64,000 nucleotides of DNA from Deuterostichococcus epilithicus. Taxonomy: Eukaryota > Chlorophyta > Trebouxiophyceae > Prasiolales > Stichococcaceae. A program made the position numbers and the translations under genes. Under the pieces are notes generated by a model that searched no databases, was not told the DNA's origin, and saw nothing but the letters and a program-made list of their open reading frames with translations. The stretch is taken from positions 1,426,082-1,490,081 of the forward strand of contig JAVTLE010000011.1 of NCBI GenBank assembly GCA_033439295.1. Direction: 5' to 3'. Each line of letters begins with the position of its first letter. Within the stretch, counting starts at the first letter, position 1. Shown here in pieces: positions 4,201 through 45,945 of the stretch.

Positions 4201-4882
4201 GGCGCGCTTCATCCACCGCGAGATCTTCCAGCAGCGGTGTTACCTGCAGCACGGCATCGCCGTCGGCGCCGGCGGCGTTGTCATCGACTGCGGCGCCAAC
4301 ATCGGGTTATTCTCGCTGTCGCTGCTGCGCTCCGCCGCGCCGCCGCGGCGCATCCTGGCAATCGAGCCGCTGCCGCCCAACGTCGAGCTGCTGCGCCGCA
4401 ACCTGGCGCTGCACGGCGGCGGCGGCTGCGACCTGACGGTGCTGCCGGTGGCTCTGGGGGCGGAGGCGGCTGCCGGTCGTGAATTCACGTACTACCCACA
4501 AATGCCAGGCAACGGCACGGCGGCGCCTGCCGAGAAGGCGCGGCTCCAGGCGGGGGCCATGCAGGCGTCCAGGTTTGCGGGTCAGACCGCCTTCGAGTGC
4601 CGCGTCGCCACGCTCAGCGACGTGATCGCTGAGCAGGGCTTGACGCGCATCGACCTCCTGAAGGTCGATGTGGAGGGTATGGAGATGGAACTGCTCCAGG
4701 GCGTGCGCCCGGAGCACTGGGGCGCCGTCCGGCAGGTGGTGGCGGAGGTGCATGATGTGGCGGATGCGCACGGCGGGCGGTTGGTGGCGGTGCGGCGGCT
4801 GCTGCAGGCAAACGGCTTTGGCGTCACCAGCTGCCGTGCTGAGCAGCCTCCGTGCAACGTTTTGGTGTATGCCAAGCGCTAG
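1247..4882 (+). CDS. UDP-glycosyltransferase fused to FkbM-family methyltransferase
   Basis: Nine exons: 1247-1307, 1404-1495, 1621-1822, 1955-2098, 2339-2580, 2768-2959, 3244-3456, 3666-4089 and 4197-4882. They sum to 2256 nt, or 751 residues. Residues about 1-500 form a GT-B glycosyltransferase of the sterol-glucosyltransferase-like plant type. It starts with LVLACGTRGDAQPL and contains FHIAEALGCP, SPCLVPYAPPTSFERRF and HWMWPLFTEPW. The nucleotide-sugar binding part has VVHHGGAGTTAAALTAGLPQ followed by CPLHFDQFAW. Residues about 510-751 form an FkbM-type SAM-dependent O-methyltransferase, with VVIDCGANIGLFSLSLL as motif I and LLKVDVEGMEMELLQGV. The two halves are joined by a phase-1 intron (4090-4196) that restores the FkbM N-terminus (THCP|DEARFIHREIF). 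The substrate is unknown; a glycosylated and methylated lipid or polyketide is a guess. No stop or second promoter is evident between the halves. The gene is divergent from the SPC25-like gene. Confidence 0.8.
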
Positions 4883-5263
4883 TGATGAAGTGACGGTGAA
4901 GGCAGAGTGTTTCAAACTTGTTCGTGGTTTCATGAGAAGGTTCATCTTTGGTTTGATGGACCGGTGAAAATATTCACCTCTGCTGAAGGTTACACTGGGT
5001 GCTCCGCCAATGCCTCAATCTTGAGTGCTAGTCGCACTCATACAAGAATTAGAAAGCGCGCAAAGAAGTTGCGCGCTCACGCGAGCGCAACAATAACTAC
5101 ACCTGAACGACTACAGCCTGGTCACGTACGTGCCGCTCTTCGAGGGCCTTCACGTTGTTCAACTTTGGTTCAAAGGCAGGTTGCCATCCTGCAGCGTCAC
5201 GGGAGCGCCAAGCGCCGTCTCAAACCAGAAGTGCATACCTGACTCACACAAAAACCACAAAAC
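4883..5263. other. Intergenic, convergent 3' ends; candidate polyA signal for the CDF gene
   Basis: This stretch of 381 bases lies between two convergent genes and has no supported gene. The minus strand reads TGTAA at 4994-4990. That is the usual green-algal polyadenylation signal and lies about 270 nt past the stop of the CDF transporter. I see no TGTAA on the plus strand here. Confidence 0.5.
4990..4994 (-). other. Candidate polyadenylation signal TGTAA (CDF gene)
   Basis: TGTAA on the minus strand about 270 nt past the CDF transporter stop codon, in a region with no other gene on that strand. Confidence 0.4.
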
Positions 5264-7361
5264 CTAGGCCACCATGTCCGTCAGCCACTGCGGCTGCGCC
5301 GTCTTGCGCGGCGAGCGGCGCGCAGGACCGGAGGGCGCCGCCGGCGGCCGCCGCGCCGCTGCGTGGCTCGGCTGCACCTTGCGCTCCTGCGTCGCCGATG
5401 AGTGCTGCTCGTGGCTGTCGCACGCCTCCTGTGTGCCGGCCAGCTCGACGAACGAGTCCGCATAGCCCGCGTTCGAGAACACCTGGTGCGCCTGCCTCGT
5501 GAGAGCGCCCGCATCGGCGCCCGCGGCCGTGACCACGCGGATCGCCGCCAGGTGCTGCGCCGAGCCCACCTGCGGGGCCGAGGAGGAAGCCTAAACGGGG
5601 CTCTGGGCAGATGTGTAGTGCCGCCTGACAGCACCCCCGAGATAGGGCTGAGGGGTGGTGGGCGGCACGAGAAATCAGCTGGCACAGAAGCAGCTCGCTG
5701 CAAGCAGACCAGCAGCATAAGCTTCGACCGGCTGATCAGCGCATGACTCAGGATGGCAACACCAACCAGCACCACGTCAGCTCACGCCCATTCTCATTCA
5801 CCTGCACGCTGTGGACGTCTGGCACATCGACGACGCCCGCCAGGCCGGTGACCTGCTGCAGGCAGGCGTCAATCTGCAGCGCCGCCGGCGCCGAGGCCGG
5901 GTACTCCAGCAACATCGCTGCTGACTGCTGAACCAGCGGCAAGACGGCAGCGACGATGAGCGCCGCGATGGCGACGGATGCCAGCGGATCCGCCCAGTGC
6001 CAGTGCAGGTGCTGCACCTGTGGGCTTACGACACGGCTCTTGGCATCGGAGCTCGACGGCAGAGCCATTGCGCCAATTCAGGTGCGTCGCACACGGGTCA
6101 TCATCGCAGCAGGGCCTACATGCCCCCATTGTTCGTCGCAGCATCGTCCCAACTCCTCAATGCACTCAACCACGTCCTCTACCTCCGCTTTGTGTCAGGC
6201 AGGAGCACACCGCCAGGGTGGACATGATGACGGCCACGCTGCCGAGCGTGTCCGCCATGACGTGCAGGAAGATGGCACGCATGTTGGGGTCTGCGCCATC
6301 GCTACACGCGCAACTGGTGCACGCCTGACCTGCATGGTGCAGGGCCGCCCAAGAGCATTGAACCATGAGCCAGGCGTTTGGCGCTTGAGCTTGCCTGTGA
6401 TTCGACTCACAAGCAGCAAGGATGCATGGATTGACATGGCAATTGTCACAGCTTGCATAGGGAGTGGGAAGGTGTGACCGTGCTCAATCCTGCTACATCC
6501 TGCTGCGGTGCAACTGTTTTGCAGGATGCAGGTCAAGGTTCTCACCGCCACTGGAGGGGCCCTTGCGTTTGTGGTCCGCCCTGTGTCTGTGGCCGCTGCT
6601 TGGGACGTGGTGGTGGTGGGCCTCGTGCACAAACAGCAGGCCCAGCAGGTTCACGGCCAGGCCCATTATGGAGACCGGCAGCAGCCGGTGCGTCGTCACG
6701 TCGTGGCCGCCGCCCATGATGTGCACTGTGGCCTCCAGCACGATGTTCAGCGCCACGAACATGAGGATGACCGCGTTGGCAAAGCCAGCCAGCACCCGCA
6801 CCCTGGGGCAGACCGGCGGCGCGGGCTCAGCACTGGCCGTCGAAGCATTGCACGCCGGACCGGGACGGGTATTAAAAGCATCAGCAGGCGATAAAAAGAG
6901 TATTGGCTCATCTGCAGTTGCCACAGTCCACAGTTGGAACTTGCACGCTGCACTGCGGCGCCGCAGGGGCCCATCTGTGGGACGGCACGCCTGTCAGCCC
7001 ACCTAACGGGGTCGCTGCGGGAGCCGGTGCGGCTGCACTTTGCGGCGTGATGCTCTGCCACCAGGCCGATCACCACCGCCGCATTGTCCAGCAGCATGTG
7101 CGCCGCGTCTGACAGCATGCCCAGGCTGTGGTTCATGTAGCCGTGCACAAACTCTACAAACATGAAGCCGACGTTGACGACGAGGAACAGGATGAGGCGG
7201 CGCTCGCGGCTGACAGTGGACAGTGACGCCGCGCCCGGCAGCTTGTGCAGCAGCGCCGCGGCACCAGCCAGCCAGCCTTGCACCGCCGCGGCTTGTGAAC
7301 CCAGGCGGGAGCGCCGCCGCGCGGGTGCCTCGGCACGCTGCCCGCCATGTGGTGCCGCCAT
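5264..7361 (-). CDS. Cation diffusion facilitator (zinc transporter, ZnT5/7-MTP type)
   Basis: Five exons on the minus strand: 7361-7003, 6802-6546, 6290-6211, 6017-5802 and 5569-5264. They sum to 405 residues in frame. CDF proteins exchange Zn2+ or another divalent metal for protons, usually into endomembrane compartments. Several hydrophobic spans match the family. The second-helix metal site is SDAAHMLLDN (His88, Asp92) and the fifth-helix site is IFLHVMADTLGS (His215, Asp219). A His-rich loop between helices 4 and 5 contains HEAHHHH and GHRHRAD. The C-terminal cytosolic domain includes AGVVDVPDVHSVQ. The loop before VRVLAGFANAVILMF normally contains a YxYG motif in this family; here it reads SRTGSRSDPVR, so that motif is lost or the first donor is mis-chosen. 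About 95 residues follow the conserved domain as a basic, Ala/Pro-rich tail. The subfamily call (ZnT5/7-like) is by motif recall. Confidence 0.85.
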
Positions 7362-7855
7362 CCTGATCAGCGAGGAGGTCGGCCAGTGCTGTCAATATTT
7401 GCGCAACAGGGTGGTGTCGGGTTCAAGCGGACCGTGCATACGGAAGGCGCACTGTACCAATCGACGCTCCTTCTAGTTTCGGCTTGCGGAATGCGAGTTG
7501 GTGGGGGTGCGGTGGCAGGGTTGTGCACCCGCGACTACTGCACGCAAGTACGACAAGCAAGGATTACTGTACCAAAGTCCTGGCAGACTGGACTATGCCC
7601 GGCGCTGCAGCCTTGTGCACAGTGTCTGAGACAGCAGGCACAATCTTGAGCCGAGTGGATTCTCTGGCCACCATCGCAGCCTCCCCTCAACCAACCGCAG
7701 TCGAGGTACCTGACTACGCATTCAAGACCGCCCTGGTGCATCTACGATTGGCGAGCTGGTTCGAACGACCGCGACAGCAACGAGGGAGTCTGTAAATTCT
7801 GACAGAACAAGGTCCGATTAAAGGTGGCGATCAGCAAGGGCCATCAGACTCAGCA
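7362..7855. other. Divergent intergenic region (promoters of CDF and BCCIP genes)
   Basis: These 494 bases separate two divergent genes and should hold both promoters. I see no clear TATA box and no gene. Confidence 0.5.
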
Positions 7856-10173
7856 ATGCCGAAGCGGCGGCGGCAGCCGGAGGCGGCGGCACCAGGATCG
7901 AGCGATGAGGCAGAGTCCGAAGACGACGAACAGCAGCAGAGCGGGTCGGAGAGCGGCACGTCATCAGACAGCGCTGTGACCGACGGATCTAGAGGGCCGG
8001 GCAGTGGCGACGACGGCGATGCCACATCCATGGAAGAGGAGGTGCAGACGACATCCTTCGTCCCTGAACAAGGCACTATGATAGAACGCAATCGATTTGT
8101 GTGATCAGTGCCCTCAATATCGACGCTTACAACCGCCCTACGCGTGTTGTGTCAGGCTGGCAACTGGCATGCAACATGCGGGCATTAGGCGTGCATCACC
8201 ACATCCAAATACTTGTGATCATGGCCATTGACCTGCTCGCTCAGGTGGAGGTGGACATCGAGTTTTTCGACCCGGGGGAGGGCGACTTCCATGGCATCAA
8301 AACCCTGCTGCAGGACCTGCTGGGCGGCACCGAGTTTGACGCCTCCCAGCTCGCAGACGCAATCATCGCTCAGGCACGCAGACCCCTGAACTGCCTTGAT
8401 GGAATCTAGAATCTGCCTGACGATCTGCGCATCCTCATGCACAGGCTGCCATGCAAGCTGTGCTGATGCCTATGTCCAAAACCCTGGGGTATTTGGATGA
8501 CCCTCGTGAGACCATCAACATCGTGGAGTGAAGTCGTGTTAAATCCACTTAATGAGCTTCACGCCAAGCAGAGCTCGGTGGGCACGGTGGTGAAGTCGGG
8601 CGAGGACGAGGAGCCCATCGGCGTGGTGTCGCCGCTCAATCTGCGGCGCTATGCGGCGCTGGAGGCGCTGCAGCAGGTTAAATCGCACCTTGTGCGGCAC
8701 TGCGACTTGCCGGCCGCCAAGGAGGCGCTGCCCGTGGTGGGTGCCTGCCTTGACCAAACATTCCTGGACCGGAAGAGGTACCGAAACCTCACAGCAGCGC
8801 GCCAAGGAGCAGCTGCTTGCGGTGGGCGCCCTGTGCAGACACCCTGCAGCACAATTCTGGGGAGGCGGGGCCTCCAAAAGGCACGGCGCACAGGATTTTC
8901 TGGGTGGTCGAGTTTGCCAAGTGGCGAGATTATGCAGCTCCAAGCAGGGCCGCAGCTATGAGTATACCCGCTGTGGAATTGGACTGAGGCCACACCGAAT
9001 TGCCAGGTGCCGTGCGGCACCCTCGCCCCATGCTGCTGCTGCTGCCTCTCCGGCCAATGAACCTATTCTGAGGTCGCGCGCCCTTGTGCTTGGGCAGGTG
9101 CTGGAAGACGCGGGCACGGGGTTGATCGTCAATGAGCGCCTGGTGAACTCGCCGCCGCAGATCGCGCCGCCACTCATGCAGGCGCTCTTCGACGAGATTG
9201 CTTGGGCTGTGGAGGACGAGCCTGACAAGGTGCGAGATGAAACCACGAGCAGGACTGTTGAATTGCATTGGAGCAGGGTGGCGAACTCCGAAACGACTCG
9301 AAACGACTGCTGACAGCGTTATGGTGGATGCCCGGATTCACATCATGCTACTCAGCTGGCTGCAGCATTGCCAATTCTGGCTTGCTGCAATTCGCGCGCA
9401 ACTGACTCGGAGTAACTTATGTTCGTTGCAGGAGCTGCAGGACAGCTTTAGATTCACGCAGTACCTTGTGATAGCGTCTGCATACCGGGACCCGCAGGCC
9501 GGCGCCGCCGAGCCTGAGCAAAAGTCGGCAAAGCCGTCGAGGAAGAAGCCAAAGGTCAATTTTCCTGGTCGACCTGCTGTTGCGCCTTAGGTGCCCTGGC
9601 TGATGTGCTCAATGCAGCATGCACTCACATGCGTGCAGTGCTAGGCCCTCTGCTGCCATGGAGGGCTCAGGCATGTGTGTTGCGAAAATGCAGGCGGAGG
9701 CGCCGCTGGTGTACACGAAGCCAGAGGACGAGTTCTTCCACAAGCACTGCTCATGGTCCTACACCTTCTCCACGCCCAAGGTGGGCACTCCTCAAAGGCT
9801 GGTGTGAGCGCAAGCACGCAGCCGACATTTGGCGTCAGAGGTTGCATATTGTCCGCCCTGTCCCACCGCAGAATTCCTATCCTTACTACGACCTTGAAAT
9901 CCGGCACTGAAACTGGAGTGCGCATCGGCAGCAGAGCTGCAGCCGATCTGTCTGGTGATGCTCGTCCCCACTTGTGGTGGGCCCTTTCTCTACCTGTGTT
10001 ATAACGTCCAGCTCCCTACACAACAGGAGGGCGCGCCGGCAGAAGAGGAGCTGCAGCCAATCCGCCTGGTCATGCTGGTCACCTCGGAGCAGGTTGCGGC
10101 CGCCCGCAAGGAGCTGGACGAGGTTGTCGGCAACGCCACCGCTGAAGAGGGCGCGGATGAGCAAGGCTCCTGA
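7856..10173 (+). CDS. BCCIP (BCP1) homologue
   Basis: Seven exons: 7856-8041, 8245-8373, 8572-8777, 9073-9229, 9432-9554, 9694-9780 and 10027-10173. They sum to 344 residues, close to the roughly 300 usual for the family. The N-terminus is basic then very acidic (MPKRRRQPEAAA, then SSDEAESEDDEQQQ), as in BCCIP. The conserved core follows, with VEVDIEFFDPGEGDFHGIKT, VGTVVKSGEDEEPIGVVSPL, GLIVNERLVNSPPQIAPPL and EDEFFHKHCSWSYTF. In animals BCCIP binds BRCA2 and p21; in yeast Bcp1 is a nuclear chaperone for ribosomal protein L23 and aids export. The second intron (8374-8571) appears to start with GC (CAG|GCACGC) rather than GT. The acceptor at 9073 was chosen by phase and is the least certain join. 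Confidence 0.85.
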
Positions 10174-11157: not shown

Positions 11158-14100
11158 ATGCAGCTGCCAGACTATTTGGCCGAACGTTTTGGCATGGCGT
11201 ACAAGCTGGTGCTGCTGCTGCTGCTGCTGGCGGCTGGCATCGCCGCCGCGTCCTTCGCCCGCACGCTGCTGACAATCCAGCGCATACAGCAGAGGCTGCA
11301 GCCGGTGCCGGCGCCGACGCCGCCGACGGCGCCGCTGCAGCGATGGCTGCACGACTGGCTGGGTCCGATCGTGCCGCTGTACAAGAATACGCCGTGGGAA
11401 GTCATGCGGCAGTGGGTGGCGGAGTCGCCGCCCATCGTCCGCATCCGCATCCTGCTGCGGCCGTGCATTATTGTCGGCAGCGCCGCCGGCCTGAAGCGCA
11501 TCTTCCAGGTGAACAAGCCAACGAGGATACATGGGCCCTGCTGTTGCATCATTGGACGCAGGACCTTGCACGGCCGCAGTTGCACGACTGGCACCTTTCC
11601 AGGGGGAAAGCTCAATTTGCTCATGGGCAAACACACAGCGCAGGAGGTTGGCTCATCGAGTCACTCGGCGAGTGGCAGTTTTGCGCGATCCTGCTGCACA
11701 TCTTCTGGCCGACCGCCCACCAAGAAACCGTGTCGAATGTCGCAGACGAAACAGCGGCTGTACGAAAAGGACCTGGACTTTTCGTACCACCCCTTCCTGC
11801 CCATCCTGGGCTCGGGGCTGGTGACGGCCAACGGCGCGCTGTGGCAGGCGCAGCGCCTGCTCATCGGGCCCGCGCTGCGGCTGGACATCCTGGACGATGT
11901 GGTTGGCATCGCGAAAGCCGCGGTGGACCGGCTCAGCAAGAAGCTGGCGCGTGTAAAGGTGGGTGACTGGCCATCGCCCATGCAGCCGATGCACAAATGG
12001 GTGCGGCAGGGGCCCGGGGGCGCCGCGTGCCGCGCTTCTGTTGCCGCAGCGACACCGCTGCAGTGGAAGGGCCGGGCCGGGCTGGCGCCGCCGGCATCTG
12101 CAAATAACTCTTCAAACAGGTCATGCCGCTAACTGAATGAAGCAGGCGCAGTGGTGAATTGGCACCTTGATGCGCAGGGCACTGGGCGGCCGGTAGATAT
12201 GGAGGAGGAGTTCCGCCTGCTCACGCTGCAAGTCATTGGGGAGGCCATTCTGGGGCTGCCCTACGAGGAGTGCGACAAGGTGGGCAGCTTTTGACACGCT
12301 TTTGTGCGGAGTGTGGCAGATTGCTGGAGTAAGGAGGTCCGTTCGGTTGGCGCCACTGGCTCTCGAGCGGCGTGCTTACAGTGTTCTTCAGCATGCATGG
12401 CTTGCATGGCCAGTGGCGCGTGTCGTGCGCCGGCGTCACTACACACGCGAGCGACAACCCAAACCAAGCCAACTCAAACCATGCTGGCTGAGGTCGCAGC
12501 ATCCGAAAGGAACAGTTGCACGCCTGCCAACCATCGACAAGGACAGTTCATTCTGCGACCCGATTGCATAACGGCGAGCCTGCCTCGCCCCGTGCACCTC
12601 GTAGTTTCTTCCGCATCTGTTCCTACCGGTCAGACTGCTCTGCAATCGCGCTCTGCAGTCTGTTGCAGCCGGCCACCCCTCTCTTGTCCTATGCACCCGC
12701 AGGTGTTTCCGCAGCTGTACCTTCCGGTCATGGAGGAGAGCAACCGGCGGGTGCTGCAGCCGTGGCGCGAATGGCTGCCCAGCCCTGCACTGTTCCTGTT
12801 CAACAGCCGCATGCGGCGACTCAACTCCTATATCTTAGGATTGCTGCGGCAGCGCTGGGCAGCGCGGCGGGCGCGCAAGGGGCCTGCCAAGCCGGATGTG
12901 CTGGAACGCATCCTGGCGGCCGTGGAGGTGACCTCCTGTCCTATCTCCACGGGCTGTTGCAAAATTACTTTGTTCGGCTTTGTCATTCCAGCATGACCAA
13001 GCCCACCGCGTAGCGCATCACCGCATCTGCGACATGCACCTCTACGGGAACTCTTTCTGTGTTCCTGCTACGTCACCGTATGTGGAGGTGTGCCAGCTTC
13101 ACAACATCGTGTCAGGCGCTGCAGCTTCAGCAGAAGTATGTGACGCACAAAACATCACGAACCTCCCCAACATCAGATGCATAGCATGGGACGAAATATG
13201 ACACGGCAATTCTAGCCACTTGCTGAACCAGGAAAACGAGCGTTGGGACGCGGGGCGCTGCAGCCGCAGCTGCGCTACAATATCAGGATCTTTCTACTGG
13301 CAGGCGGGAACCATCGTCCCACCTATCGGTATCGAATCATTCACTGTTGCCGCAGGAGCGGGGGGAGAGCTGGGATGGGGCGCTGGAGACGCAGCTGTGC
13401 TACGAGATCAAGACCTTCCTGCTGGCGGGTCACGAGACCAGCGCAGCCATGCTGACCTGGACGCTGTATGAGCTCACTCAGCACCCGGACGCCCTCGCCA
13501 AGGTGGGCCTTTCATGCCAGTATGTCCTGCCAGTCTCTGTCGCACGACGGCAACTCTGGTGATGCCACTCAGCCTGGAGCATGGTGTATACGTGTGAGGA
13601 TTGCTGTGCCAGCCGCAATGGTCAGTGACTGTCCACGAGTATTCAACGGGGGATCTCCTGTTTGCACCCACTGCAAGTGTTGGCTGAGATGCGCTGCAGG
13701 TGAAGGACGAAGCGGTGCGGGCGTTTGGCCAGGATGAGCGGCAGCTGTCGCGGCAGGCCGTGGAGGACATGACTTACACCGTCAGCGCGCTCAAGGTGCT
13801 GCGCCTTCTGCTGCATGGAGTGGTCGGCAGCGCAGGTGCAGCGCCCTGCCGGCTGCCTGCAGCTGTTGCGGCGCCGCTCGTCCAGCCTGTCTGCCTCGGG
13901 CACAAGAGCCGGTGCTGGCCGTCCAACGCGCCCCGCCGCGAGCATACCTTCATTGCACTGTTGCGAAATCGCTAATCAAATTTCTTGATCGCCAATCGCA
14001 GGAGTCGTTGCGGAAGTATTCGGTGGTTCCTGTGGTCGTGCGCCATCTGTCGACGGACGATGAGTTGGAGGGCCACGCCATCCCCGCCGGCACCACCGTC

Positions 14101-19897: not shown

Positions 19898-20107
19898 ACC
19901 CGAGCTTGGCGGCGGGACAGGCAGCGCCTTGTGCTGCCCGGCGGGCAGCCTCTGGCCAACGGCGGGAGCAGCGGCGCCCCACACACTGCCTGGAGGCAGT
20001 GCATGGAGTGATGGAAACACGTCCACCAGCGGCAGGGCTCGTGCCCTGCGCCGCTTGCTGGTGGTCCATAGAGCGGGGCCGGCCGCCGCTCGCGGTGCGG
20101 GCAAGAA

Positions 20108-20560
20108 GGCCTCGAAGGGTTCACACAGATGCAAGCCCGGCCTCTGCTGGCGAAGGCCACAAGGAATGCGGGGCCTGGTCGCGCAGATGCTCCAAGTTTT
20201 CACTCATCTGCGCCCTCACAGCGCAGCAGGTCACGGCGATGATTCGAAGAGTGTCGGGCGCAGTGCAGGATATACTCAAGAATATAAGCGTCACAGGATG
20301 CGGTTGTCTCTGGCGACCCAGCGCCACACATCGAGAAAGCCTCAAAGGTTCACATAAGGCAACCCCGACCTCCGGCGGGGGAAGGCCACACGGGGTCTGG
20401 TCGTGCAGATGGTCCAAGTCATTATTACTCTGCGCCCCATGGCGCAGCGGCGCATGGCGATGTTTTGAGGAATGTCAGGCGCTGTGCAGGACATAGGTAT
20501 GCAAACAGCGTTGCAGGCATGGTTGTCTCTGGCGGAACAGCGCCACACGTAGTTACTTAT
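20108..20560. repeat. Two-copy direct tandem repeat, unit about 230 bp
   Basis: Copy 1 starts near 20111 and copy 2 near 20341. Shared blocks appear in the same order in both: GGTTCACA, GAAGGCCACA, TGGTCG(C/T)GCAGATG, CTCTGCGCCC or CATCTGCGCCC, GTGTCGGGCGCAGTGCAGGA versus ATGTCAGGCGCTGTGCAGGA, and GGTTGTCTCTGGCG followed by CAGCGCCACAC. The copies have clearly diverged. There is no long ORF and no terminal inverted repeat that I can see. It could be a piece of a transposable element, a satellite-like repeat, or a duplicated 3' UTR block. Confidence 0.8.
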
Positions 20561-36101: not shown

Positions 36102-36389
36102 CGCTGCGCTACTTGGACGCCTCAACAGAAAGCGGTGAGCTCAGACTGGCGCCCACAGCGGCGCGTCCGACCGAAATCGTTGAGTTTGACTTTGTTCTGG
36201 TTTGAGCCTGCAGTCGTGAGCTGGGCGAAGCAGTGAACAGGTCGCTGCAACCAAGTCGATCCAGCTCCCAGGGGGAAGGGAAGCGAGGCTTGTACTGATA
36301 GTCCCGCGGATCTCTGAAAAACGTGCGGGAGGTGCAGCACGCTCACACTGAGTTCTCGGCCCTCAACACTCCAGCAAGTACATAGCACG

Positions 36390-38164
36390 ATGGCCCTTCA
36401 AATCTGCACACAGCAGCTGCGCATCGCTGCCACCTGCGCTCGCGGTCACACCTTCAGATCAGCAGTGCCACGTCACCTTGCAGCCACAAGCCGCAAGGCG
36501 CTTGCTGGCGTGCCGGTCGTTCAGAGAACGGTCTCAAGCCAGAGCAGGAGCCGCTCGACGCTAGCAGGCGGCGTCTCGATGGCCGCAGCCGCCCAAACAC
36601 TCCACGACTTTCAGGCAAAGGCAAGCGTTCGAGGCAACCTCTCGAAGCTTCAGTGCCTTGCTGTGCACATGCTCGAGCTAGAGGCTTTGGCATGGCAAGA
36701 GAGCCTGCAGGGCTCAGAATGCGATGCTTCAGCCCGTCGGCCATTGTGTGGCTCAGTCTGCAGCATGGACGGCAGCATGAGGCAGGGCGCCGTCATTGCC
36801 TGCGCTCAAACACGTCTGCCTCATTTTCCTCCGCATGACCGTCCTCTGCGTCGGATCTGGTGTAGGCATCATAGCGATGCAGTGTCACCCTGACGGTCCC
36901 TGTACCACCCGCCATACAGGACATTGACGGCAAGACGGTGGACCTGTCGAAGTACAAGGGCAAGGTCCTCCTGGTGCGTGGCTCCGTTGCCGTGCTCAGT
37001 GGATTCTGCCATTTGTTTCTGTTAGGTGAACGCTTATGTGGAACGCTTATGTGGAAGACATACTAAGCGGATATGTACAGTCGTGCAGGTGGTGAACGTG
37101 GCCTCAGAGTGAGTCGGCTGGGCGTGGCTCCGTTGCCTCGCCCAGTGGATCTTGCAATTTGTCTATAACGCCTTGTGTGGACGACATACTCAGCGGATCT
37201 GGACAGTCGTGCAGGTGCGGATTCACAAAGCAATACACTGGCCTTGCGGAGCTTCACGATAAGTACAAGGGCAAGGGATTCGAGGTGAGCCTGCGGTATC
37301 CCAGCCTGTCCTCACTCCCTTCGCTTGGACACTGACATACACTGTCACTCGATGGGTAACCTTCTGACGCCTTGGGTTGCTGGATGTGCAGGTTCTGGCA
37401 TTCCCATGTGAGCGGCTTCCTCCTGAATTGCGGTGACGGTGCTGCCCCAGTCACTGGCGACCCAGGAACACCTGTCCTTAGAGTTGCCACAAGCGTGACG
37501 TGAGTCAATTTTCTGATGCACTGCGCAACAGGCAATCAGTTTGGGGGCCAGGAGCCGGGATCATCCGAGCAGATCAAGGCATTTGCCAAGAATAAGGGTC
37601 AGTTGCCTGATGTGCAACGCCTTTCCGCAATCATCTGCCTTGCAGCATGCGGCTGCAGATGCTGCAGCGTGATGCCGATGTGCATGGTCATACGAAAGCC
37701 GACCTTTCTGGGCCTGCAGGCGCCAGCTTCCAGATGTTTGACAAAGTGGACGTGAACGGAGCCAACGGTGAGTAATTGAATAACAAAGTTGGCATGCAGA
37801 CCCCGCAAGGCACATCAGTTCAGGACTTGGAAACCAGAGCGTCGTCCGGGTTTCATGCGCGCTTGTTTCTGACGGGCCGGGGCCTGCTGTTTCCCACAGC
37901 GGACCCGGTGTGGCAGCACCTGAAGTCGGCCAAGGGCGGCTTCTTGACTGCCGACATCAAGTGGAACTTCAGCAAGGTGAGGCGCAAGATAGTTGTATGT
38001 GTAGGCATGTGCGGCTCCTGCCGAGCCGGGCGTTCCGTCCGCCAGCCTTGATGGAGCATTTCCACTCGCAGTTCCTGATCGACAAGGATGGCAATGTGGC
38101 CAAGCGCTATGGCAGCACAACCACACCGGAGGACATCGAGAAAGATGTGTTGGAGCTGCTCTGA
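36390..38164 (+). CDS. GPX: Glutathione peroxidase-like thiol peroxidase, probably organelle-targeted
   Basis: Nine exons: 36390-36620, 36920-36973, 37089-37108, 37215-37284, 37392-37407, 37532-37597, 37720-37767, 37900-37976 and 38072-38164. They sum to 224 residues. The first 65 or so residues are basic, Ser/Ala-rich and free of acid groups, like a chloroplast or mitochondrial transit peptide. The core has DIDGKTVDLSKYKGKVLL, NVASE|CGFT with peroxidatic Cys103, FPCNQFGGQEPG with Gln137 and IKWNFSKF with Trp190, the classical catalytic set. It reduces lipid or hydrogen peroxides using thioredoxin or glutathione. The resolving Cys that plant relatives carry after the QEPG segment is absent (IKAFAKNKGASFQMF). 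Exons 3 and 5 are only 20 and 16 nt. Intron 1 starts with GC (AAG|GCAAGC). Introns 2 and 3 are copies of each other. Confidence 0.93.
36974..37214 (+). repeat. Two homologous neighbouring introns in the GPX gene
   Basis: Intron 36974-37088 and intron 37109-37214 flank a 20-nt exon. Both contain the blocks CGTGGCTCCGTTGCC, CAGTGGAT, CATTTGT or AATTTGT, GACATACT, AGCGGAT and the identical end ACAGTCGTGCAG. The two are about 110 nt long and align over nearly their full length. Confidence 0.85.
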
Positions 38165-39268
38165 GCGATTCTTTCCATCGCACATCACCGGCAGGAAGTG
38201 CCCTGCCTTCACTGGACTGGAAACTTGGTTGACGATGTCAAACCTGGACCTGAGTGGGCGACGTACAGATACTTCAAAGTGCTAGGTACCTACTTCGAAG
38301 CAGGTTGATCCAATTGCAAATGATCTGTGATGAACTCTTGACACAGAGGCATCAATTACCAGGTTAAACACCAAGTATACTTACTGGGTACGCATCCAGT
38401 AGTACTGCGATCGTCAGAAGTGGCCTGCTGGCCGCCCCCAGCTTGAACGTATTACAACTTCTGAGTCTCCGTCGTCCGAATGCACTTGCGCCCCGTCTGG
38501 GCGGCGGCCTTCGAAACACCCGCGAGAAGCACTCATCTCCACATCTTCCGCTGCTTATGCTCCTGTCTGCTCTTCACGTCAATAATGTGATGCGTCATCT
38601 GGGGGTGGCGGTGGCGGCTTTAAATGCGTCATTGGTGGCAGCGGCTGCGTCTTTGGACAAGCTGCTTTGAACCTCCAGCTTTGAACCGTGTGTCATGGGA
38701 GTTCTTGCAGTCGCGAACGGGTCGGCACCACCGCGGTAAATTAGTGCAGCGGATGCACTCCAGGGCGCCGATCAAGCATCAAGCAGCCTGTCAGCGAAGC
38801 GGCTGCCAGTGGCAGCCTGCCACGGAGTCGCATTTGTCAGGACTATCGGTGCGGATTGTATCGAGCACACCTGATAAGCTTTGCGGCACAAGTGCTGTGC
38901 TTGAACGATTCCTGACCAGGATCCGGTTGCAGCCCAGGCGTTCTGAGACAATCCTGCACGCGCGCAATGCTGTGAATCGGTTTCGGGAAGTATTTACCGC
39001 CGATCTGCACGCGCCGGGCTTCAGGTCTTTGCAGAGGTTTCTGTGGCTGCGCCGCAGCGCATCCCGTGCCGCCCAGTGCCGCCACCTGCAGCGCACTGAG
39101 ACCGTTCCGAAGGTCAGACTGCTGCGTCTGATCTGCTGTAGACAGACTGTCAGTCTGTGCAGACCTGCATCATCGACGCGCCGGCAGGCGCCCAGCCGGC
39201 GTAACCAGCATCCGTAGTGGCACCCTGAAGCACCTGCTCTGCTGCCCACGCATGTTCAGGCACCCGGC
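38165..39268. other. Intergenic, no gene seen
   Basis: About 1.1 kb lies between the GPX and FPGS genes. Two overlapping ORFs on opposite strands (38624-39217 plus, 38791-39249 minus) have Arg/Ser/Cys-rich, non-family-like translations. An upstream exon with an organelle transit peptide for FPGS could be hidden here, but I cannot support one. Confidence 0.4.
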
Positions 39269-45632: not shown

Positions 45633-45778
45633 GACAACTCAACTGGCAGCTTTGGATTCGCGGTCCGATTCCATCGGCAGCAACCCGAGCTGCATTTTCT
45701 AATAACCACAAGCAATGCAAAAAGTTTCTGCCTTCGCAATCTCGCAAAAGTCTGCTGTGAGGCATGCATTGCCGGCTG

Positions 45779-45945
45779 GCTTAGCATGCACCATCTCACA
45801 GCCCCTCCCACACACACGCTCAAAACCTGGACCCGGACCGTCCCAAGCCCTGCCCCCCGGCTAGCCTAGCATGCACCAACTTACAGCCCTCCCACACACA
45901 CTCAAACCTGGACCCGGACCGCCCTAAGCCCTGGCCCCCGCTTGC
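45779..45945. repeat. Imperfect tandem repeat, unit about 85 bp
   Basis: Copy 1 (from 45779) and copy 2 (from 45864) share in order TAGCATGCACCA, TCACAGCCC or TTACAGCCC, TCCCACACACAC, CTGGACCCGGACCG and CCTGCCCCCC or CCTGGCCCCC. They differ by small gaps. The repeat lies in the 3' region shared by two convergent genes. Confidence 0.8.
45881..45885 (-). other. Candidate polyadenylation signal TGTAA (small minus-strand gene)
   Basis: TGTAA on the minus strand about 85 nt past the stop at 45970. It lies within copy 2 of the local tandem repeat; copy 1 has TCACA instead of TTACA, so only copy 2 has the signal. Confidence 0.45.

Follow-up and report, generated by a model that had tools for sequence, protein, structure and literature searches.

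Two adjacent introns of a glutathione peroxidase (GPX) gene in the green alga Deuterostichococcus epilithicus share a block of copied sequence, and we propose, at a probability of somewhat under 60%, that the pair arose when DNA was copied once, over a short range and on the same strand, within the gene itself. The gene lies in a 64,000-nucleotide stretch (positions 1426082-1490081) of contig JAVTLE010000011.1, hereafter the window. The copied piece would be the 3' part of the second intron together with one exon codon (GTG), placed into the exon immediately upstream.

The GPX gene and its products

The coding part of the GPX gene occupies 1,775 nt of the plus strand (36390-38164) and comprises nine exons (36390-36620, 36920-36973, 37089-37108, 37215-37284, 37392-37407, 37532-37597, 37720-37767, 37900-37976 and 38072-38164; some edges were corrected by hand) encoding 224 residues. 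The two introns under study, both GT-AG introns on the plus strand, lie at 36974-37088 (intron 1, 115 nt) and 37109-37214 (intron 2, 106 nt). They are separated by a 20-nt exon (37089-37108, plus strand) that encodes VVNVAS plus a portion of the codon for E. These coordinates had been given correctly in the earlier note, and both introns terminate in ACAGTCGTGCAG.

Removal of both introns yields a complete GPX, and the spliced protein covers 108 of 108 positions of PF00255 (E 1.3e-41, Pfam scan). A 223-aa protein, P0001, is 95% identical to the window GPX and was found on two contigs, the longest of 1,024 nt; it shows the same exon join, uninterrupted across VLLVVNVASECGF. We take this contig for a transcript (cDNA) of a close relative, given its length relative to the 1,775-nt gene, and as such it supports both introns. 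The 20-nt exon is required for VVNVASECGF, which is common to P0001 and similar in relatives. Among the matches listed, the nearest GPX protein is a JGI protein with 95% identity, the named green algae (Apatococcus, Botryococcus, Myrmecia, Coccomyxa, Chlorella, Micractinium and Haematococcus) show 52-66% identity at 70-100% query coverage, and several land-plant proteins outscore the proteins of these algae. Elsewhere in the genome, contig C21 carries an RbcL reading frame with 92% full-length identity to three proteins and to one from the alga Batophora. At least two paralogous GPX loci are present in the genome, at about 4499-5067 of sampled stretch L012 and about 5327-4664 of L013 (minus strand), a lower bound, as the family search scored single exons and missed the window gene itself. 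Both loci are uninterrupted across the matching stretch and have no intron at either site. This absence is in keeping with a gain in the window gene but does not prove it, the paralogs being distant.

Several further features of the gene were recorded. The first GPX intron (36621-36919) has a GC donor (AAG/GCAAGC, the slash marking the splice site) and at 299 nt is more than twice as long as the other introns. The same 16 bases, encoding KYKGK, occur in two GPX exons (36950-36965 and 37261-37276), 311 bases apart; this identity may reflect shared codon use or else another local copy. The second KYKGK site is altered in two relatives, to KYKNK and KYSPR. Rfam families were absent from 36300-38300 at gathering scores.

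Extent of the copied block

Local alignment of intron 1 with intron 2 gave a score of 77, compared with a maximum of 29 across 2000 dinucleotide shuffles, which bears out the earlier proposal that the two are copies with intact splice sites. The copied block spans 36977-37091 on the intron 1 side, including GTG, the first codon of the 20-nt exon, and 37123-37217 on the intron 2 side, including the exonic bases GTG (both plus strand). It starts with CGTGG (36977 / 37123) and ends with the GTG past the acceptor (37091 / 37217). The alignment consists of 95 columns, of which 83 are identical and 12 different (6 transitions and 6 transversions; Jukes-Cantor 0.14), and it contains three gaps of 2, 6 and 12 nt. 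Today the copies are offset by 126-147 bases. With differences at 12 of 95 columns and three indels, an assembly duplication was judged unlikely.

Between the two blocks lies an unmatched spacer of 31 nt (37092-37122, plus strand), made up of the remainder of the 20-nt exon and the first 14 bases of intron 2. The BLASTN match begins further left, by way of CTGG, pairing 37118, the tenth base of intron 2, with position 36971 of exon 2, and the last 5 spacer bases fall inside it. In shuffle tests of the left flanks, P was 0.37 for 24 bases with a strict score and 0.28, 0.06, 0.24, 0.37 and 0.38 for windows of 10, 12, 14, 18 and 24 bases with a looser score. Because the left-flank likeness (CTGG) did not rise above chance in the shuffles, the firm match was counted from base 15 of intron 2. 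As a correction to the earlier note, the likeness does not run the full length of the introns. To the right of the block, 4 of 24 flanking bases agree.

GTG is present on either side of each intron, as a target-site duplication would be. Relatives, however, have a pair of residues where the window gene has V-V (VVNVAS, IVNVAS), which can be explained without the gain of any base. Intron 1 alone contains a 13-nt tandem repeat, two units of GAACGCTTATGTG (37028-37053, plus strand), which is a later indel. Intron 2 folds far more stably than its shuffled versions (z -4.1) and intron 1 does not (z -0.7); a CTGGGCG/CGCCCAG hairpin close to the start of intron 2 is absent from intron 1, the differing bases being clustered.

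Proposed copying event and its direction

We propose that, at the exon site CTGGTG^GTGAAC, a strand being synthesized in repair or replication jumped ahead by 31 bases, copied CGTGG...GCAGGTG (the 3' part of intron 2, its acceptor and the next GTG) and then returned. The product would be exon 2 ending in CTGGTG, followed by CGTGG...GCAGGTG and then GTGAAC. The donor of the new intron, GTGCGT, would thereby consist of the exonic GTG and the copied CGT, and the acceptor would arrive within the copied block. The copied GTG would restore the reading frame, leaving the protein unchanged, and the insert would be spliceable at once. We infer that the copying took this direction in a single event, by slippage, and that it was an intron gain rather than a replacement. 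The same-strand orientation, the short distance and the abrupt ends point to out-of-register repair synthesis or same-strand fork slippage as the mutational step.

Intron 1 is probably the younger copy, and it is quite likely that intron 2 rather than intron 1 served as the source. With intron 2 as the source, all bases of intron 1 are explained, later indels excepted, whereas with intron 1 as the source intron 2 would open with 11 bases that are left over (7 if CTGG is counted). The right edge of the block lies three bases into the exon and the left edge within intron 2; a right edge that passes the acceptor into the exon is compatible with DNA copying. The intron 1 donor GTGCGT is the sole one of the eight GPX donors without A at +4. 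As an argument for a young intron 1 this weak donor is thin, since a TRF4-like exon in sampled stretch L015 ends at a GTGGGC donor. Copying of the whole intron followed by loss of 11 bases after GTG would give the same sequence. Net intron gain and its direction are suggested, and not proven, by sequence comparison within one genome.

Copying in the reverse sense, with intron 1 as the template for intron 2, or the replacement of an intron that already existed by its neighbour, appears rather unlikely. The start of intron 2 bears a faint likeness to the end of exon 2, seen in the BLASTN match through CTGG and in one of the six flank tests (P 0.06, 12-nt window), which leaves room for copying from exon 2 into intron 2, and the hairpin found in intron 2 and absent from intron 1 could stem from inverted templated synthesis. 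However, this reading leaves 7-11 bases of intron 2 without explanation, and the remaining five flank tests gave P values of 0.24-0.38.

Local direct copies across the sampled genome

Self-comparisons were made of seventeen stretches amounting to 224 kb, or 0.5% of the genome. They comprise the 64-kb window, two stretches of 10 kb chosen for the GPX paralogs, and fourteen more of 10 kb taken at a fixed coordinate of other contigs. BLASTN returned 46 same-strand self-matches versus 1 on the opposite strand, and five block-wise dinucleotide shuffles of the 224 kb produced 1 match in all. In a looser search, 35 direct pairs 60-200 bases apart versus 1 inverted pair scored at least 32 bits, and each of three shuffles gave 0; with the threshold lowered to 26 bits there were 49 direct and 6 inverted pairs, and each shuffle gave 2. 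The offsets in this search peak at 80-160 bases. Among the 31 direct BLASTN pairs less than 1 kb apart, a number that retains two which by eye are plain coding or simple repeats (L012 3986 and L018 9289), the offset was 97-150 bases in 18. Offsets near 120 may reflect the copying machinery or merely the spacing of exons and introns.

Most of these pairs (27 of 31) are spaced, with a ratio of block to offset of at most 0.82, the value of the GPX pair itself, and 4 of 31 are arranged head to tail (at least 0.98). The likeness extended into the flanks beyond the 95% level of a null made of random pairs in 3 of 62 cases, about the chance expectation. We dropped simple tandem duplication followed by decay as a general model, the flanks not being extended even in pairs that are 95-100% identical. 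AGGT occurs in register in 10 of 31 pairs, and eleven control 4-mers did so in 0 to 9, so in-register AGGT is suggestive at most as a general sign.

This survey bears on a second explanation of the GPX pair, namely a 126-base tandem duplication of the 20-nt exon plus intron 2, followed by loss of about 31 bases from the left copy. The loss would have removed the redundant exon copy and the old donor, the spare exon would have become essential, and two introns would remain. The 3' halves of the GPX copies are indeed offset by exactly 126 bases (20 + 106), GTG is found at every junction, the head-to-tail arrangement does occur in the sample, and a boundary-crossing tandem duplication is documented for the potato RdRp intron (PMC4974935). 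Yet two events are required, the duplicated 20-nt exon shifts the frame, so that the intermediate would rely on exon skipping, and the spaced arrangement prevails among the local pairs; we regard this course as unlikely. A local duplication, offered in the earlier note as the alternative to an introner-like origin, fits better than the latter, but its simple tandem form is disfavoured by the 31-nt spacer between the blocks and by the frequency of spaced short-range copying in the 224 kb.

Several repeats were also noted in the sample. In the window, units of 215-226 bases at 20104-20329 and 20334-20548 lie almost head to tail and are 75% identical, a tandem duplication, and an 81-base unit occurs twice in tandem at 45772-45940 with 87% matches. 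Triple copies in a row, identified by eye or from overlapping pairs, were seen at L018 398-608, L020 7238-7523, L021 2240-2554 and L025 1036-1364. At such sites the middle copy is often more decayed. The triple copies suggest that copying recurs at the same exon.

Exon copies and their decay

Sixteen exon-like translations, picked by eye, were scanned against Pfam. Fitting matches were obtained above the cut-off for four of them (NTP_transf_2, Glyco_transf_90, Helicase_C and p450) and below it for three (PP2C, and PAP_assoc twice), and eight gave no match. The seven fitting matches correspond to seven pairs with one exon member, and at least seven such pairs therefore exist, a lower bound drawn from reading frames and Pfam in which the non-coding state of the partner copies was judged by eye, except in one TRF4-like case in L015. 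A rhaM match (E 0.029) was set aside as weak and ill-fitting, as was a DddA-like match (E 0.093, below the cut-off, beside one of the PAP_assoc matches). A codon-usage classifier of exons versus decayed copies failed to separate the known GPX exons from introns and was left unused.

Four pairs in L015 (7427/7566, 9041/9191, 9552/9653 and 9767/9894) fall within about 2.5 kb (7427-9934) and look like parts of one gene, for a TRF4-like poly(A) polymerase. Its upstream exon, which we take from its motif to belong to the TRF4-like family, ends at 7139 (IWPTAQVQ), and the next exon begins at 7580 (VFGSFATGLYLPTSDMD). The decayed copy at 7427-7471 lies inside the intron and includes the 14 bases preceding the acceptor. 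The pair at 9767/9894 is 95% identical over 41 nt, and a pair in L025 (2127/2247) is 100% identical over 31 nt with both copies in one open frame, so that either may be coding; both pairs look young, though the likeness ends abruptly.

Comparable arrangements were noted elsewhere. In the window, a cytochrome P450 exon (PF00067, over the cut-off) forms the downstream member of a pair at 13252-13304 / 13377-13429, with a decayed copy 125 bases upstream that is 81% identical. Another direct pair (9911-9969 / 10022-10083) is 111 bases apart and 77% identical; its downstream member has the appearance of a gene's final exon and the upstream copy looks decayed, and Pfam gave no match for this pair. 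At L016 859-1192, a likely intron opens with sequence resembling the beginning of the following exon (GT90 family) at an offset of 271, with AG/GT in register, 11 of 25 bases agreeing beside the splice site and 89% across the next 36. This is a possible intron of the type modelled by Rogers.

Judging by these copies, the GPX event would be an instance of a local copying process that is frequent in this genome and whose products also include decayed exon copies within or next to introns. What sets the GPX case apart is that the copied piece brought a working acceptor and was inserted at a site where a donor arose. The same observations weigh against an RNA route, in which spliced intron 2 would have been reverse-spliced into GPX mRNA 20 nt upstream, reverse transcribed and recombined, intron 1 then losing 11 bases. 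Intron 1 does align as a version of intron 2 that has one 11-base gap near its start, and indels of 2, 6 and 12 nt already exist. But the match reaches three bases into the exon at the right, and local copies elsewhere include exon pieces and some exon-intron junctions, neither of which is made by RNA intron transposition, making this route very unlikely.

The search for further copies

The earlier note had called the introns introner-like and proposed a search for further genomic copies between splice sites. DNA searches of the 46.8-Mb, 21-contig genome, conducted with both introns jointly and with each separately, found no third copy of the block; each sister copy was itself detected weakly (E 0.001 and 0.005), and the searches skip very common words and give counts that are lower bounds. 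The lack of other copies is one half of what the note had given as refuting its reading. Across the whole genome, degenerate patterns for the 5' part and the 3' end (23 and 26 fixed bases, up to 3 mismatches tolerated) matched only the GPX pair, although copies more diverged than the pair could escape them. Inverted repeats of at least 12 nt were absent from 36700-37600.

In PMC9860276, introners are recognized as families of at least 4 similar introns, by similar introns outside genes with similar proteins, and by a likeness that, in each of the two introns compared, sets in no more than 5 exonic or 10 intronic bases from either boundary; terminal inverted repeats (TIRs) or a target-site duplication are present in part of the known families. 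Genome-wide, two adjacent introns alone were found, strongly diverged copies possibly escaping detection, and they belong to a single gene, with 20 nt between them. The likeness begins within the stated distances at three of four boundaries; at the fourth, the 5' end of intron 2, the BLASTN match starts at base 10, which is the limit, and the firm match at base 15. An introner element, in the sense of a mobile intron family with many copies, is hardly credible: although the copied intron retains intact splice sites, some introners bring one splice site and recruit the other (PMC9860276), and heavily diverged copies would lie beyond the reach of the searches, just two copies were found, in the same gene and the same orientation and without inverted repeats of 12 nt or more.

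Discussion

It is possible, and we advance it only tentatively, that short-range same-strand copying, of about 30-120 bases moved by about 100-150 and mostly spaced, is frequent enough in the genes of Deuterostichococcus epilithicus to shape gene structure. Decayed copies of adjoining exons would add to the length of introns, and an occasional acceptor-bearing copy would give rise to a new intron, as in GPX. If this is true, intron birth needs local copying alone and no transposon. The sequence from which a gained intron derives is known in few cases (PMC4974935). For GPX a likely source can be named, and the limits of the copied piece and the way in which its splice sites were recruited can be followed base by base; the surrounding genome seems to contain sister events at various stages of decay.

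Among known systems, introner elements (Gozashti et al. 2022, PMC9860276) likewise consist of copied introns with working splice sites. The GPX pair differs from them in that no family of at least 4 was found, a single gene is involved and inverted repeats of at least 12 nt are lacking.

The local pairs of the alga are like short paired duplications, reportedly described in mammalian genomes by Thomas et al. in 2004, in being short direct copies a short distance apart. To our knowledge, short paired duplications are not known as a source of introns. The phrase "short paired duplications" does not occur among the literature matches listed.

Decaying duplicated exons are reported for 0.4-1.0% of mammalian genes in PMC2718932, and the alga resembles them in that decayed copies lie close to the parent exon. 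In the sampled sequence, direct pairs with a separation of 60-200 bases occur at a density of one in 6.4 kb; not all of these are exon copies, and the figure is not directly comparable with the mammalian per-gene value. The titles and opening lines of the literature matches listed hold no description of such exon ghosts in algal introns, nor are they mentioned in the excerpt of the Coccomyxa genome paper (PMC3446292).

In the model of Rogers (1989), as it is outlined in PMC4974935 and PMC3443670, an exon segment that contains AGGT is duplicated in tandem in the genome, and an intron results. The GPX pair is similar in that a local duplication yields splice sites and leaves the protein unaltered, and AGGT is in register, at 37087. 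The two copies are not head to tail but separated by the 31-nt spacer, a tandem unit followed by deletion being conceivable but unlikely, and the block is not an exonic segment but intronic save for three bases.

The nearest published case among those read is the intron of the potato RdRp gene, gained by a boundary-crossing duplication (Ma et al. 2016, PMC4974935). As in potato, the GPX copy carries the 3' side of an existing intron, including its acceptor, and runs on into the exon that follows; the block ends in GCAG/GTG with three exonic bases, and the donor would likewise have been recruited from exonic sequence. The potato RdRp event was a tandem duplication in which the gain is demonstrated by species comparison, whereas the GPX blocks lie 31 nt apart and are known from one genome, and unlike in potato only three exonic bases were copied.
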